From: Oscillospiraceae bacterium
GTDB lineage: Bacteria > Bacillota > Clostridia > Oscillospirales > Ruminococcaceae
Length of the DNA stretch: 38,346 bases
Direction: 5' to 3'
NCBI GenBank assembly: GCA_014799325.1
Contig: JAAVIE010000136.1
Span: 1 to 38,346, forward strand
Shown: piece by piece, positions 4,141 to 38,346 of the stretch
How the letters are laid out: every line of letters begins with the position of its first letter
Numbering within the stretch: the first letter of the stretch is position 1
The notes under the pieces: model-generated
Told to the model about the DNA's origin: nothing
The model's database searches: none
What the model saw: only the letters and a program-made list of their open reading frames with translations
Translations under genes and position numbers: made by a program

Positions 4141-4350
4141 AATTCCTTCAAAAAAGTTGGCAATAATTACCTGATTTAAAAAGAATTTCAGAACCGCAAA
4201 CTTTTTAAAATTGCAAGCAATTTTAAAAAGTTTGCTATCCGACCGAGTTTGCGCTTTTTGCTTGGAAAAATGGGCAAAAATCACAAACTCAGTCGATTTC
4301 TGAAATTCGTGCTCTCAAAACAGTTGTGCTATCGGATATCCGCTTTCAGA
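4141..4350 (+). repeat. Modular hairpin element copy 3 (forward, diverged)
   Basis: Outer stem GAATTTCAGAA (4183-4193)/TTCTGAAATTC (4298-4308); hairpins 4196-4214/4217-4235 (19 bp) and 4241-4261/4274-4294. Confidence 0.88.
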
Positions 4351-4396
4351 TAATGTTGTGCTGTTTTACAGCTAAATAAACTTTTGAAAAATTTCC

Positions 4397-4416
4397 GGTT
4401 TTGAAATTCTTTTCAG
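4397..4416 (-). repeat. Solo element end (GGTTTTGAAATTCTTTTCAG) just upstream of the KS start codon
   Basis: Matches GGTTTTGAAATTCTTTTTAAATCAG of copies 1 and 5. Confidence 0.55.
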
Positions 4417-4430
4417 ATAAGGAGCAAATA

Positions 4431-6764
4431 ATGAACAAGAACAGATGCGTAGTAACAGGCTTAGGACTTATCTGCGCCTTGGGCGACAACGTTGACGAAT
4501 GCTGGGAAAATGCCGTCAGCGGTATTTCGGGCATTCGCGATGTTACAAGCATAAGCACCGAAAACTGTTACGCTAAAAAAGGCGCGGTAAACGATACTGC
4601 CGACAGCGAGCTTTCCGGGGAGAACTATGACCGTTCCTCTCTGCTGTGCATTAAGGCGGCAGAGGAGGCTTTGAATGACGCGGGGATCTCTCCCGAAAAC
4701 GATAGCGGTATCGGCGTTATCGTGGGTAACTGCGTAGGCGGCGCGGCAAGTATTGACAGCTATTACAGAGCGGTCAAGGAGTGGGGAGACGAAAATGTTT
4801 CCAAGGAGGAAATATTGAAGATGCCTGCTTCCGCTATCGCCAACAATGTTTCCGCTCATTACGGATTGAAAGGGCTTACCGCCAATATCGTCAACGCCTG
4901 CGCGGCGGGAACTATCAGCCTTGGCTACGCCTGTGACCTTATCAGGAACGGAGAAGCGGAGGTGTTCCTTGCAGGAGGCTCCGACGCTTTCACTTCCCTT
5001 GCCTTTGCGGGATTTCACGCCCTTCATGCTCTGGACGAGCACCCTTGCTCTCCCTTTAACCACAGCAGCGGTATCACTTTGGGCGAGGGCGCAGGAATGC
5101 TTGTTATCGAAAGCTATGAACACGCTGTTCAGAGAGGGGCTAAGATATATTGTGAGATCTTGGGTTCGGGCGTAAGCTCGGACGCGCACCATATTACCGC
5201 TCCCCGTCCCGACGGCGAGGGACAGATGAGCGCGATAAAGAGAGCTATGGCAAGCTCGGGTGTCAAGCCCGAGGATATTGACTATATCAATGCTCACGGC
5301 ACAGGCACCGCAAAGAATGACGAGGCTGAGTTTTTGTCGCTCCATACGCTTTTTGACTGCTCCGATAAGCTGTCCGTAAGCTCTACCAAATCTATGACAG
5401 GACACTGTCTGGGCGCGGCGGGGTCTATCGAGGCGGTGTTTACGGTAAAGGCGCTTAAAGAGGGCGTGATTCCTCCCACAATAGGATATACTGTGGAGGA
5501 TAAGGCAGTTTTGGAGGAAAAGGCAGGGAAGATCGACTTTATGCCCAACGAGAGCAAGGAGAAGGAGCTTTCCTTTGCTATGTCCAATTCCTTTGCTTTT
5601 GGGGGAAATAATGCAAGTATAATTTTCGCCAAGGAGCCTAAAGAAATTCCCGAAATGCGTAAAGATTCTCCTATCTATATTACGGGTCTGGGAATTGTCA
5701 GCAGTAATGCGGACGGTTCGGCTTCTGTCAAGGCGGCGCTTAGCGCCGAGGACTACAAGGCGCATGATATAAAAATGGCGTTTTACAGGAAGCTTGACAG
5801 ATTCAGTCAGTTACAGCTGGTGAGCGGTGTCAGGGCGCTCGCTGATGCGGGCTTTAAAGCCGATGAGAGCAACGAGAATGATATTGGTATTATAATAGGT
5901 ACATCTGACGGACCTTTGACCGAGATCGTCAATTTCCAGAAAAATGTTATTGATAACGGTACTAACGGGGGCAGTGCTTTTTCGTTCCCTAATACCGTTT
6001 ATAATGCGGCAGGGGGTTATTTCTCCATTTTTGCAGGAATAAAGGGCTATAATGTTACTGTGGCTAACGGCGCACAGTCGGGATTGCAGAGCGTTTGCTA
6101 TGCTTATGACGTTATTCGGAGCAAGGAAGAAAGCGTTATGGTGGCAGCAGGTACCGATGAGAACACCGACGTTACCGAGTATTTGTATAACAAGTACGGC
6201 GTTGTGGCTGAAAATGCGCCTTACAGCGGCGGCGAGGGCTTTGTGCTGGGCGAGGGATCGGTTTCGGTTGTTTTGGAGTCGGGGGAGTATGCGGATAAGC
6301 ATGATTCCAAGAAGTACGCCCAAGTTGTGAGCTGTGGAATGGCGCATTGCCCTAAGGAATACTCCGATCCGAAGGTGGATCTTGATACTGTGAAGAAGGC
6401 TGTGGGTGACGCTTGCAAGAAGGCGGGCATTTTCCTTGAACAGATAGATTTTGTCAGCGGCTTCGGCTGCGGACTTAAAGAGATCGACGACGGCGAGTTG
6501 GAGGTTTACCGCGAGTTGTTTGGTGTTAACAAGCCTGTGCTGTCCGTTAAGGCGGCTACGGGTGACGCAAGGGCGGCTTCTGCGGCTATGCAGCTGGCTC
6601 AGGCAGCTAAGGTTCTGCACGGTGACAGTGATGTTTCGGGTAAGTGGTTCAGGATCACCGAGAACGGCGCAGAGCCTGCCGAGGCTGTCAGGGGCGAATA
6701 TGCCCTTGCTGTTAGCTGCGGCGCGGGGGGTTCCTGCTCGGCGGTTATTATTAAAAAGGTTTAA
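4431..6764 (+). CDS. Fused tandem beta-ketoacyl-ACP synthase (active KS + degenerate KS/CLF-like domain)
   Basis: First domain: NACAAGT, NAHGTGTAKND, STKSMTGHCLGAAGS. Second domain: SPIYITGLGIVSS..., VANGAQSGLQ, SGFGCGLKEIDDGE, SVKAATGDARAAS. ATG at 4431 with AAGGAG. Confidence 0.9.
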   Translation: MNKNRCVVTGLGLICALGDNVDECWENAVSGISGIRDVTSISTENCYAKKGAVNDTADSELSGENYDRSSLLCIKAAEEALNDAGISPENDSGIGVIVGNCVGGAASIDSYYRAVKEWGDENVSKEEILKMPASAIANNVSAHYGLKGLTANIVNACAAGTISLGYACDLIRNGEAEVFLAGGSDAFTSLAFAGFHALHALDEHPCSPFNHSSGITLGEGAGMLVIESYEHAVQRGAKIYCEILGSGVSSDAHHITAPRPDGEGQMSAIKRAMASSGVKPEDIDYINAHGTGTAKNDEAEFLSLHTLFDCSDKLSVSSTKSMTGHCLGAAGSIEAVFTVKALKEGVIPPTIGYTVEDKAVLEEKAGKIDFMPNESKEKELSFAMSNSFAFGGNNASIIFAKEPKEIPEMRKDSPIYITGLGIVSSNADGSASVKAALSAEDYKAHDIKMAFYRKLDRFSQLQLVSGVRALADAGFKADESNENDIGIIIGTSDGPLTEIVNFQKNVIDNGTNGGSAFSFPNTVYNAAGGYFSIFAGIKGYNVTVANGAQSGLQSVCYAYDVIRSKEESVMVAAGTDENTDVTEYLYNKYGVVAENAPYSGGEGFVLGEGSVSVVLESGEYADKHDSKKYAQVVSCGMAHCPKEYSDPKVDLDTVKKAVGDACKKAGIFLEQIDFVSGFGCGLKEIDDGELEVYRELFGVNKPVLSVKAATGDARAASAAMQLAQAAKVLHGDSDVSGKWFRITENGAEPAEAVRGEYALAVSCGAGGSCSAVIIKKV

Positions 6765-10961: not shown

Positions 10962-11000
10962 AGATTAGCACAACTGCACTGACAGCACGAATTTCAAATT
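10962..11000 (-). repeat. Modular hairpin element copy 4 (single end, reverse)
   Basis: TTAGCACAACTGCACTGACAGCACGAATTTCAAA matches the right end of other copies. Confidence 0.6.
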
Positions 11001-23448: not shown

Positions 23449-23784
23449 GGGGCTGCAAAAAAACGATCCCTATGTTTTTGCCAAGGTTCCTGAAAGAATC
23501 GTAAAAATCAGCATAACACCTCTAAAAGCGGGTTTCCACTCGCACAACTTTTCTGACAGCACGAATTTCAAAAATCAACTGAGTTCGGATTTTTTGCCCA
23601 GTTTTTCAAGCAAAAAAGCCGAACTCAGTTAGATAAGAAACTTTTTAAAATTGCCCAGTTTTACAAGCAATTTTAAAAAGTTTCTGGTTTTGAAATTCTT
23701 TTAAAATCAGTAAATTACTGCCAACTTTCCTTAAAAGCGGGTTTCCACTCGCACAGCTTTCTTGGGAGCTGTTTTTTTACAGCC
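23449..23784 (-). repeat. Modular hairpin element copy 5 (reverse, complete)
   Basis: Outer stem 23563-23573/23688-23698; hairpins 23577-23597/23610-23630 and 23637-23654/23667-23684. Confidence 0.92.
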
Positions 23785-27639: not shown

Positions 27640-28015
27640 TTTTTATTCTCTCAAAAAACTTGGTGATGATTTTGGTTCTCTCAAAAACCCGGTGCGAAAA
27701 TATGTCCGCTCTCAAGGAAAGTTGGCGGTAATTTACTGATTTAAAAAGAATTTCAAAATTCCGAAAATGAAACGCCGGAGGCGTTTCATTTCTCGGAACC
27801 AGGCAAAATTTTCGGAGAAAATTTTGGACTTCCGCAGGAAGTCATAGGCTTCTTTTGAAATTCGTGCTATCAGGGCAGTTGTGGGAATGGAAGCCCTCTC
27901 TTAGAGAGGTTGCTCTATTAGATGTCCACATTTTAAAACTTGTGCTGTCAAGGCAGATGTGCTAACGCAGCCCGCCCTTAAGGAAACAAGTGATAATCTT
28001 TCACCGTTCATAGGA
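27640..28015 (+). repeat. Modular hairpin element copy 6 (forward) carrying a different set of internal hairpins
   Basis: Outer stem 27748-27758/27853-27863; hairpins 27759-27798, 27804-27826, 27827-27843, each with a 3-nt loop. Confidence 0.9.
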
Positions 28016-31051: not shown

Positions 31052-31726
31052 TTAATATCCAACAATAGAATCAAACATTGCCTTAAAATTCGACAAATTC
31101 TCATTTTCAAAATCAAAAGCTCCCATTTTGGACGCTTCGCCGATCTTACTGCCGATATATTTATCATTTGATGATAAATAGGTGTGCAGCCTTGATTTAT
31201 GTAAATGTTTTATTTTATATTTGTGCTTTTCCTGTGTAAGCTTTAAGTATTCGTCAACACAAGCCATTTTTGAAGCATATTGTTCGTCTTTCAAAATCTT
31301 TAAACATAAATCTTCCAATGTACCGTTTTCCCATTTACCGTTTGTCTTTATACCCGGAAGTATTCCGAAAACTGTATCCGGACCGTTATTGTTTTTCTTT
31401 AATTTAAAACATTGTTCTGAAGTTTCCAAATTGATTTTCTCAAAACTGCTTCTTACAGATTGTATTGCTCCTTCCGAATCTTTTTCGGCATCACGGATCA
31501 CTCCAAAGGATTTAAGCTGATCATAGCCTGATGTATACGTCCAGTTTTCCATACCTTTATCTAAATCATTTATTCCACCGATATCCTCTAATTGTATTTC
31601 ATTATATTTTTCATATCCTATTTTTTTATAATGGTCAAGATAAAAAATAAAAAATGTTTTTTCGTCTCTGCCCTCGCATAGGATCAAGTGCTTTGTGCTG
31701 TCTTTTATCTTTAAGTTTTCATTCAT
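31052..31726 (-). CDS. DUF3226-like (Toprim-type) protein
   Basis: HLILCEGRDEKTFF, FGVIRDAEKD, GILPGIKTNGKWENGTLEDLCLKIL, KIGEASKMGAFDFENENLSNFKAMFDSI. Confidence 0.75.
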   Translation of the reverse strand: MNENLKIKDSTKHLILCEGRDEKTFFIFYLDHYKKIGYEKYNEIQLEDIGGINDLDKGMENWTYTSGYDQLKSFGVIRDAEKDSEGAIQSVRSSFEKINLETSEQCFKLKKNNNGPDTVFGILPGIKTNGKWENGTLEDLCLKILKDEQYASKMACVDEYLKLTQEKHKYKIKHLHKSRLHTYLSSNDKYIGSKIGEASKMGAFDFENENLSNFKAMFDSIVGY

Positions 31727-31737
31727 GATCTCACCGC

Positions 31738-32826
31738 CTATCTGATTTCCAGAGAAGAATTTAATATTGATCTCAGCTGTTCCTTATCAATACACTTTGC
31801 GGTGATGATCCCGGCAGGATCTGTATTTTCCAGCCTGACGTAGCCAAAATCAATATCTATATCATTATTTGCGGCATCGGAGGCTCCGTTGATACATTCA
31901 TAGCTATGTGTAGTGGCTATTACCTGAACGTTTGATTCCTTGGCGGTTTTGAAAATAACTTCCCAGATCTTTTTGTGCATGGAATAATGGAATCCGTTTT
32001 CTATCTCATCTATCAGAATTATGCTGTTGGGATTTGCAAGAATAGAAATACAGATATAAAGCAGCTTGAATATTCCGTCACCCATGTAGTCAACAGATAT
32101 TTTGTGTCCGTCGCTCAATACCGCATAAAGTCTTGCCATGCCTTGCTGTACAATAGTTTTTAGATCAACAATGTTGGGGTCAAAAATTTTTAGTGCGCTG
32201 ATAATTTGCTTGTTCTTTTCTTCTGTATCAAGGGCGAGCCTTCCGTACATTTCAGCTAATGTCATTTGATTGTAGCCTGTTTTTGATGAAACATAATGTG
32301 TTAGGATACAATTCCTTAAAGGGCTTTTTGTTTGGTCTCTGCTTGTCGTTTCTATACGTCCGTCAAACAATACATTAAAACGCAAAGAATCGTTTATTTC
32401 GCCGTCTGTTGCCGATACAAACAGCTGATGTGTTATACCGCTTTTATCTTGTGTCTTCTGACCGAAGGGATCAATATCGTTCACTTGATTGTTTACAGAA
32501 TTAAATACAGTATCTGCACTTTCTAATCTTACATCAACCTTTTTTATTTTATTATCAAATGTTTGAATAGAAAAAGCATTTTCTGTGGAATAAACGTTAA
32601 TAAACGATTTCCATACATCTGTCATCAAAGAGCTTGAGGCTCCTCGTAAGTTGTTTAATGTTAGGAAAGCGTTGGGGTGGTAATAAAAGTTGGAAAAAAA
32701 TATCGCTTCCAACAATGTCGATTTACCACAGTTATTTTTTCCCGAGATCAAAGTAACTTGGTGCAGGTGCTCAATGGAAAGCTCTTTTAAAACCTTAAAG
32801 TTTTGTATTTTTACAGAACTTATCAT
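31738..32826 (-). CDS. AAA/ABC-type ATPase (AAA_15/AAA_21-like, OLD/RecF-type)
   Basis: Walker A SGKNNCGKSTLLEAIF, Walker B SIILIDEIENGFHYSMH, ATTHSYE; 11-nt gap to the downstream gene. Confidence 0.88.
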   Translation of the reverse strand: MISSVKIQNFKVLKELSIEHLHQVTLISGKNNCGKSTLLEAIFFSNFYYHPNAFLTLNNLRGASSSLMTDVWKSFINVYSTENAFSIQTFDNKIKKVDVRLESADTVFNSVNNQVNDIDPFGQKTQDKSGITHQLFVSATDGEINDSLRFNVLFDGRIETTSRDQTKSPLRNCILTHYVSSKTGYNQMTLAEMYGRLALDTEEKNKQIISALKIFDPNIVDLKTIVQQGMARLYAVLSDGHKISVDYMGDGIFKLLYICISILANPNSIILIDEIENGFHYSMHKKIWEVIFKTAKESNVQVIATTHSYECINGASDAANNDIDIDFGYVRLENTDPAGIITAKCIDKEQLRSILNSSLEIR

Positions 32827-38177: not shown

Positions 38178-38346
38178 TGTGCAGCTTTCTTGGGAGAGTC
38201 GTAAAAATTAGCTCAACATCTCTAAGAGCATGTCATATTTAGCTTGACTGTTCTGACAGCACAAGTTTTAAAACGCGGACTCCCAATAGCACTACTTCTC
38301 TGATAGCACGAATTTAAAAAAGTCGCAGAATTTCCTATGGAAATTC
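38178..38346 (-). repeat. Modular hairpin element copy 7 (reverse, truncated by window end)
   Basis: Degenerate ~30-nt units, GATAGCACGAATTT end, and hairpin GAATTTCC-TAT-GGAAATTC (38328-38346). Confidence 0.75.

Follow-up and report, generated by a model that had tools for sequence, protein, structure and literature searches.

The segment at positions 4183–4308 of the window, by which we mean the whole 38,346-nt stretch of Oscillospiraceae contig JAAVIE010000136.1 analyzed here, is a single copy of a dispersed repeat in which an 11-bp outer stem encloses two hairpins in a three-way junction. On balance, and judging from comparison of the copies, we think that this is probably a young, dispersed, non-autonomous and mosaic palindromic repeat of mobile type, whose arms evolve in concert by template switching in DNA.

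Anatomy and modular build of the repeat

The boundaries that a preliminary description had assigned to the window copy proved exact. On the + strand, the 5′ arm of the outer stem, GAATTTCAGAA (4183–4193), is followed by CC (4194–4195), hairpin 1 (4196–4235), TATC (4236–4239), hairpin 2 (4240–4295), AT and the 3′ arm, TTCTGAAATTC (4298–4308), with the unpaired CC, TATC and AT separating the stems. Hairpin 1 has 18 bp and is of the short-loop form (TTGC AAGCAA), and hairpin 2 carries a conserved apical loop, here TTGGAAAAATGG, with two C·A mismatches and one C·T mismatch in its stem. Both CC and TATC are invariant in 25 of 25 aligned copies, and TATC is retained in several copies from a sister species. 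The + strand folds to −54.7 kcal/mol, as compared to a shuffled mean of −21.5 (z = −9.4, 0 of 200 shuffles), and the − strand also folds far beyond its shuffles (z = −10.6). The left flank (4148–4182, +) contains AAAGTTGGCAATAATTACCTGATTTAAAAA, which is common to array-type copies, while the right flank (4309–4367, +) is made of array-like units, GTGCTCTCA.AAACAGTTGTGC.., and is followed by the left-end fragment of another copy in the opposite orientation (4382–4422, −). This fragment lies just 5′ of the Shine-Dalgarno sequence (AAGGAG) of a ketosynthase gene with its start codon at 4431. A scan for an intrinsic terminator within the element found none, and a search of the window against Rfam gave no match at gathering level and only chance-level miRNA/7SK matches at a relaxed threshold.

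Counting the 4183 copy as copy 3, the window holds two further class I cores, copy 2 (996–1131, +) and copy 5 (23563–23698, −), together with copy 1 (6–126, −), a class I copy with an extra inserted hairpin module that is truncated by the contig start. Copy 6 (27747–27864, +), which had been grouped with copies 2 and 5, does share their outer stem, but its inner hairpins are unrelated in sequence and it belongs to class II. Right-end fragments lie at 10966–10998 (−) and, at the contig end, at 38270–38321 (−). Elsewhere in the window (31052–32826, −), genes for an AAA_15 ATPase and a DUF3226 protein, matched by the PADLOC models AbiLi / PDC-M38A and PDC-M38B, form a probable anti-phage defence pair.

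Class I is defined by hairpins 1 and 2 within the outer stem, to which optional modules are added: a hairpin inserted in the hairpin 1 loop (GTACTAATCCC..GGGATTAGTAC), two hairpins replacing TATC (GTACTTCTCGGC..), or a hairpin 3, with an apical loop reverse-complementary to the loop of hairpins 1 and 2. In class II, known from 30 distinct sequences, that outer stem encloses a pair of unrelated hairpins, A and B, with a third hairpin and nested ones as options. Hairpins 1, 2 and 3 and the inserted modules combine freely, and the copies are mosaics. Many copies are preceded on their left side by arrays of a 29-nt unit, CTCTCARGRAASTTGTGCTGATTTGGGTT, with 187 pattern matches in the host genome versus 0 in 24 other genomes searched; examples are L139:1000–1200 and C151:143–311, and many contigs end in such arrays. 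On the right side are units of ∼47 nt that can repeat, as at L218:375–640 beside a class II copy (..GTGCTATCAGTAAAGCGGTACAAGTGGTAACCCSCATTTTATAGCTT..). A CRISPR array was considered for the 29-nt units and rejected, since they are contiguous tandem copies without unique spacers between repeats. Beyond the outer stem, similarity among copies continues to the left and to the right, with a left boundary that differs between copies. We picture each copy as a constant outer stem around exchangeable hairpin modules, flanked by the ∼29-nt and ∼47-nt tandem units. A second palindromic insert, GAACATGTTCCAATAG..CTATTGGAACAAGTTC, was seen inside element copies in two other species (L061:1380–1570, L092:1–50) and also adjoins one host-genome copy (right flank of L070).

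Covariation among the copies

The paired differences between copies that the preliminary description reported are real. Of the 25 aligned copies, 3 have the outer-stem change from A-T to G-C; copies 2 and 5 have a hairpin 1 foot of AGAAAC/GTTTCT where copy 3 has GCAAAC/GTTTGC; and the base of hairpin 2 is AAC/GTT in copies 2 and 5 versus GAC/GTC in copy 3, with an inner C-G that became T-A. Hairpin 2 of copy 3 bears these paired changes but also one-sided or broken positions, namely its three mismatches. Covariation beyond chance extends through the genome: in alignment A1, made from 25 canonical host-genome copies, pairing holds in 98.1% of 1276 cells, and both partners change in 24 of 52 pairs. 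The covariation score is 0.301 versus 0.102 for shuffled alignments, with none of 500 shuffles reaching it, and in all slid registers pairing drops to 30–59%.

No pair in A1 has a one-sided G-U state, excepting the junction pair at columns 74–129 (T·G in 13 of 25 copies), which we took as a junction nucleotide and which, if genuinely paired, is the sole common wobble in the alignment. Exchanges of transversion type, C-G for G-C among them, occur in at least about half of the pairs that vary, and for these a route via G-U alone is impossible. To count wobbles, we folded 55 copies with G-U forbidden and scored symmetric single mismatches; against 3033 Watson-Crick pairs there were internal mismatches of 11 G-T, 16 A-C and 27 other types. 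In tRNA stems of the same genome, used as a control with ARAGORN, which accepts only standard pairs, 45 of 624 pairs (7.2%) are G-U. The comparison of the 27 wobble-type element mismatches with the 45 tRNA G-U pairs gives a Fisher P of 2e-18, with cells that are not independent in either set.

Stems mostly change by whole pairs

In minimum spanning trees of haplotypes, both-sided outnumber one-sided changes by 16:4 in hairpin 1 and 34:14 in hairpin 2, and by 12:8 and 27:21, respectively, when a double change is costed as two. For hairpin 1, a both-sided change in a single pair, with all else identical, makes up 13 of 18 tree edges, while other differences come in blocks, e.g. AAACTTT versus CAAGATT. 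One-sided G-U or A-C intermediates, by the mismatch counts above, are nearly absent.

The stems are also highly diverged. Between-copy difference per site is 0.334 in the hairpin 1 stem and 0.305 in the hairpin 2 stem, 0.152 in the hairpin 2 loop, 0.03–0.06 in the outer stem, and in the flanks 0.147 on the left and 0.407 on the right. With G-U limited to ≤1%, a one-step pair model predicts a stem divergence of ∼0.05 at a neutral divergence of 0.36 (∼1/8 of neutral), and the same model with G-U free predicts that a third of pairs would be G-U. The observed stem divergence together with scarce G-U means that one-step evolution through G-U cannot produce the pattern.

Inverted segments are found between paired arms. 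The three-base loops of hairpin B in class II, 11 in number, include four reverse-complement pairs (GGA/TCC, GTA/TAC, GCA/TGC and GAA/TTC) on arms that are identical or similar; set against a null matched for composition, this count is modest (P = 0.034). In hairpin A at L225:514–600, a 24-nt spacer is inverted between perfect arms relative to L218 and L222, with 1 mismatch in the inverted alignment versus 11 in the direct one. Among class I copies, no inversion of the apical loop of hairpin 1 or 2 was seen, suggesting a strand-specific constraint.

Template switching predicts simultaneous compensatory changes at several bases as well as inverted loops (PMC8794818), and in E. coli it is known to bring quasipalindromes closer to perfection (PMC7202029). 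As far as the sequences can tell, the combination of arm homogenization with loop or spacer inversion that marks template-switched quasipalindromes is present here. The hairpins would form in single-stranded DNA during replication or repair, where a polymerase or repair process would copy one arm from the other; a mutation in a single arm would then be erased or passed to the other arm in one event, and pairing would persist at nearly neutral stem divergence. Recombination between copies would exchange whole hairpins, and some of the whole-pair steps could be due to this.

It is very unlikely, in our judgment, that recombination or gene conversion among copies did all of this, block-shuffling a few founder hairpins so that the covariation is old, with neither current correction nor selection. 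Module mosaicism and the block differences in hairpin 1 would fit such a history, but the edges with a both-sided change in a lone pair do not, nor do the loop and spacer inversions, and an origin would still be needed for founders with different, perfectly paired stems.

The preliminary description had read the paired substitutions as selection for the folded form, as RNA or cruciform, and had set against it substitutions paired by chance or by gene conversion of palindromes. That interpretation is supported in part. The fold is real, the architecture is kept and the pairing exceeds chance; however, the pattern is the one that arm copying in DNA would yield, which comes close to the contrary case named in that description. 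Paired substitutions alone do not show selection here, because one-sided G-U states are lacking and steps involve whole pairs, and because the stems diverge to near the level of the right flank while loops and a spacer are inverted. As to the form, we favour a fold at the DNA level, hairpin or cruciform, over the less likely RNA.

Distribution, insertion sites and search for a mobilizing enzyme

A DNA search of the host genome (2.64 Mb, 164 contigs) found tens of copies in both orientations. In all there are at least 75 scattered copies, ∼50 of class I plus 30 of class II, a lower bound; repeats break contigs in this 164-contig assembly. The covariance model R1, built from A1, matched ∼50 places in the host genome, one in the congener G016 and, weakly, one in the congener G011; a search with it of 22 further congeners and 16 genomes of the order gave no match. 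A long nested hairpin at L062:1480–1600 of G011 is unrelated but has a similar apex, TTTTTGC..GGGCAAAAA. Scanning named genomes for the right-end 18-mer brought up two relevant MAGs: the Oscillospiraceae MAG JAAVIG01, through the very contig that carries the G016 match, and the uncultured Clostridia MAG CANEHP01 (G041), a sister species with roughly 80% identity at shared loci. The three other 18-mer matches were rejected, as each stands alone in an unrelated taxon and lacks a match to the model; the viral contigs searched gave none. G041 contains 18 element matches, overlapping ones counted, which are diverged relatives with the same architecture and different stem sequences, e.g. CAAGCAGGTAAGC..GCTTACCTGTTTG at L196 and AAACAGGGTTGC..GCAACCCTGTTT at L198.

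Two comparisons of occupied and empty sites were available. At an orthologous site in G041 that is empty, the gene ends and the sequence runs straight on, where L021 has a terminator, an array and the element; in G008, a 60-nt spacer between the acyl-carrier-protein and ketosynthase genes takes the place of the window copy. The relatives are too diverged to define a target duplication. Neither a target-site duplication nor a terminal boundary nor a mobilizing enzyme was found in these two comparisons and a Y1_Tnp search. An IS200-like Y1 transposase is split across contig ends (end of G000:C40 and end of C103) and is probably multi-copy in the host genome. A Y1/RAYT link was rejected, as the Y1 fragments are ordinary IS200 and the element does not lie at their ends.

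These data bear on whether the element moves as folded single-stranded DNA recognized by a hairpin-specific HUH/Y1-like enzyme, with selection for DNA pairing in place of arm copying. We hold this to be rather unlikely. Watson-Crick pairing kept nearly without G-U, the conserved outer stem, junction and loop, the many recent copies and the empty sites would all be expected of it. Against it, besides the Y1 fragments, stand the absence of a GTAG/GTGG head and the lack of defined ends; moreover, selection alone requires one-sided intermediates, which are rare here.

Under concerted arm evolution by template switching, conservation outside the inner stems needs a separate account. The junction CC / TATC / GATT, the apical loop TTGAAAA..GG and the outer stem are kept while the stems turn over, including in the sister species. 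The outer stem is nearly invariant though it too is an inverted repeat, so that concerted change alone leaves part of the pattern unexplained. A constraint of another kind probably keeps these parts, the simplest candidate being recognition of folded DNA during spread, and since the architecture recurs around different stems in G041, the fold itself probably matters, again most simply for spread as DNA. More speculatively, the repeat might be a replicating DNA element with a folded single-stranded phase in which every stem is rewritten from one arm each round and only the parts read by an enzyme are fixed. The stems would then be hypervariable and the junction, loops and outer stem fixed, with the structure inherited and the stem sequence disposable; we put this forward as a long shot.

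Strand and neighbouring genes

Mismatches in hairpins 1 and 2 are skewed, with ∼12 A-C versus 4 G-T on the + strand, which corresponds to G-T on the − strand; in the simplest copies, by our own grouping, there are ∼8 versus 0 events in the same direction. As a means of assigning an RNA strand this asymmetry was set aside, being suggestive in hairpins 1 and 2 but lost over all modules (11:16). Among host-genome copies, the right-hand gene reads toward the element in a ratio of 33:14 (P = 0.008), and co-directional flanking genes are biased 19:6 (P = 0.015), a count in which the window copy was reassigned because its left neighbour had been misread by a simple ORF caller. About eleven copies without a left array (L035, L049, L065, L071, L080, L086, L088, L216, L221, L228 and L229) begin a few bases before the Shine-Dalgarno sequence of a gene on the − strand; their spacing is nearly constant, the native leader is replaced, and both classes are represented. 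The genes adjoining copies are unrelated to each other, and the orientation, though biased, includes both directions. A groEL-like gene (..GGMGGMY stop) ends exactly where the copy at L029:1490–1515 begins, and this copy apparently supplies its stop codon.

The mismatch skew and the gene-orientation bias could reflect a functional − strand RNA, and because of the orientation bias we retain as a rival a structured cis-acting RNA of the − strand, an mRNA leader or 3′ UTR element, whose pairing is kept by selection on the RNA fold. The bias toward − strand co-transcription, the G-U skew on that strand, the copies that stop short of a Shine-Dalgarno sequence and the conserved junction and loops speak for it. 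We nevertheless consider it unlikely, as G-U is depleted on both strands relative to tRNA, hairpin 3 bears an inverted loop, the neighbouring genes are unrelated and copies occur in both orientations, Rfam gave no match, and high stem divergence at low G-U is out of reach for one-step change.

Comparison with known repeats

The pneumococcal and streptococcal BOX elements (PMC3049150) are likewise dispersed, intergenic and modular, with conserved ends, a variable number of inner modules, an extensive predicted fold and species-restricted families. The same modularity is seen here, the outer stem and flanks being constant around class I, class II and inserted hairpins. In contrast to BOX, the inner stems are hypervariable yet paired, loops are inverted and 29- and 47-nt arrays flank the copies. 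Terminal inverted repeats and target duplications are on record for BOX, and we found none; the likeness is one of build.

REP/BIME sequences with RAYT transposases (PMC2817692) are also high-copy intergenic palindromes that form mosaics and foldable single strands, but the element's stems are AT-rich rather than GC-rich and it has two or more hairpins inside one outer stem. The GT(A/G)G head of REP/BIME is absent from the hairpin feet, which read ACC / TATC / GATT (+) and AATC / GATA / GG (−), and among the Y1 fragments of the host genome no RAYT gene flanked by the repeat was found. Like MITEs, the element is short, AT-rich, highly base-paired, non-autonomous and recently amplified. A target duplication, true terminal repeats and a partner transposase were not found in the two occupied/empty comparisons and the Y1_Tnp search, and similarity continues on both sides past the 11-bp inverted outer stem, itself constant.

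Quasipalindrome template-switch mutation (PMC7202029, PMC8794818) shares the complementing of an arm in one event, compensatory changes and predicted loop inversion. That work used reporters and RNA genes, whereas our reading comes from comparison of copies that are natural and dispersed, tens of them in a single genome. By analogy, the repeat behaves like a BOX-, BIME- or MITE-type interspersed repeat combined with quasipalindrome correction, and we treat it as a family of its own alongside these groups.

Implications

Compensatory base changes are widely regarded as the best comparative evidence for functional RNA. The repeat described here is a warning that paired changes in stems are not proof of one: at least 75 copies in one genome, together with those of its sister species, display strong covariation that looks DNA-driven, and DNA arms copying each other fits the pattern better than slow selection on RNA. 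Published evidence on the maintenance of stems by template switching has been termed circumstantial (PMC8794818), and this family may serve for testing to what extent perfect stems are created and kept by template switching and not by selection, with the combination of G-U depletion, whole-pair steps and loop inversion offering a simple diagnostic.
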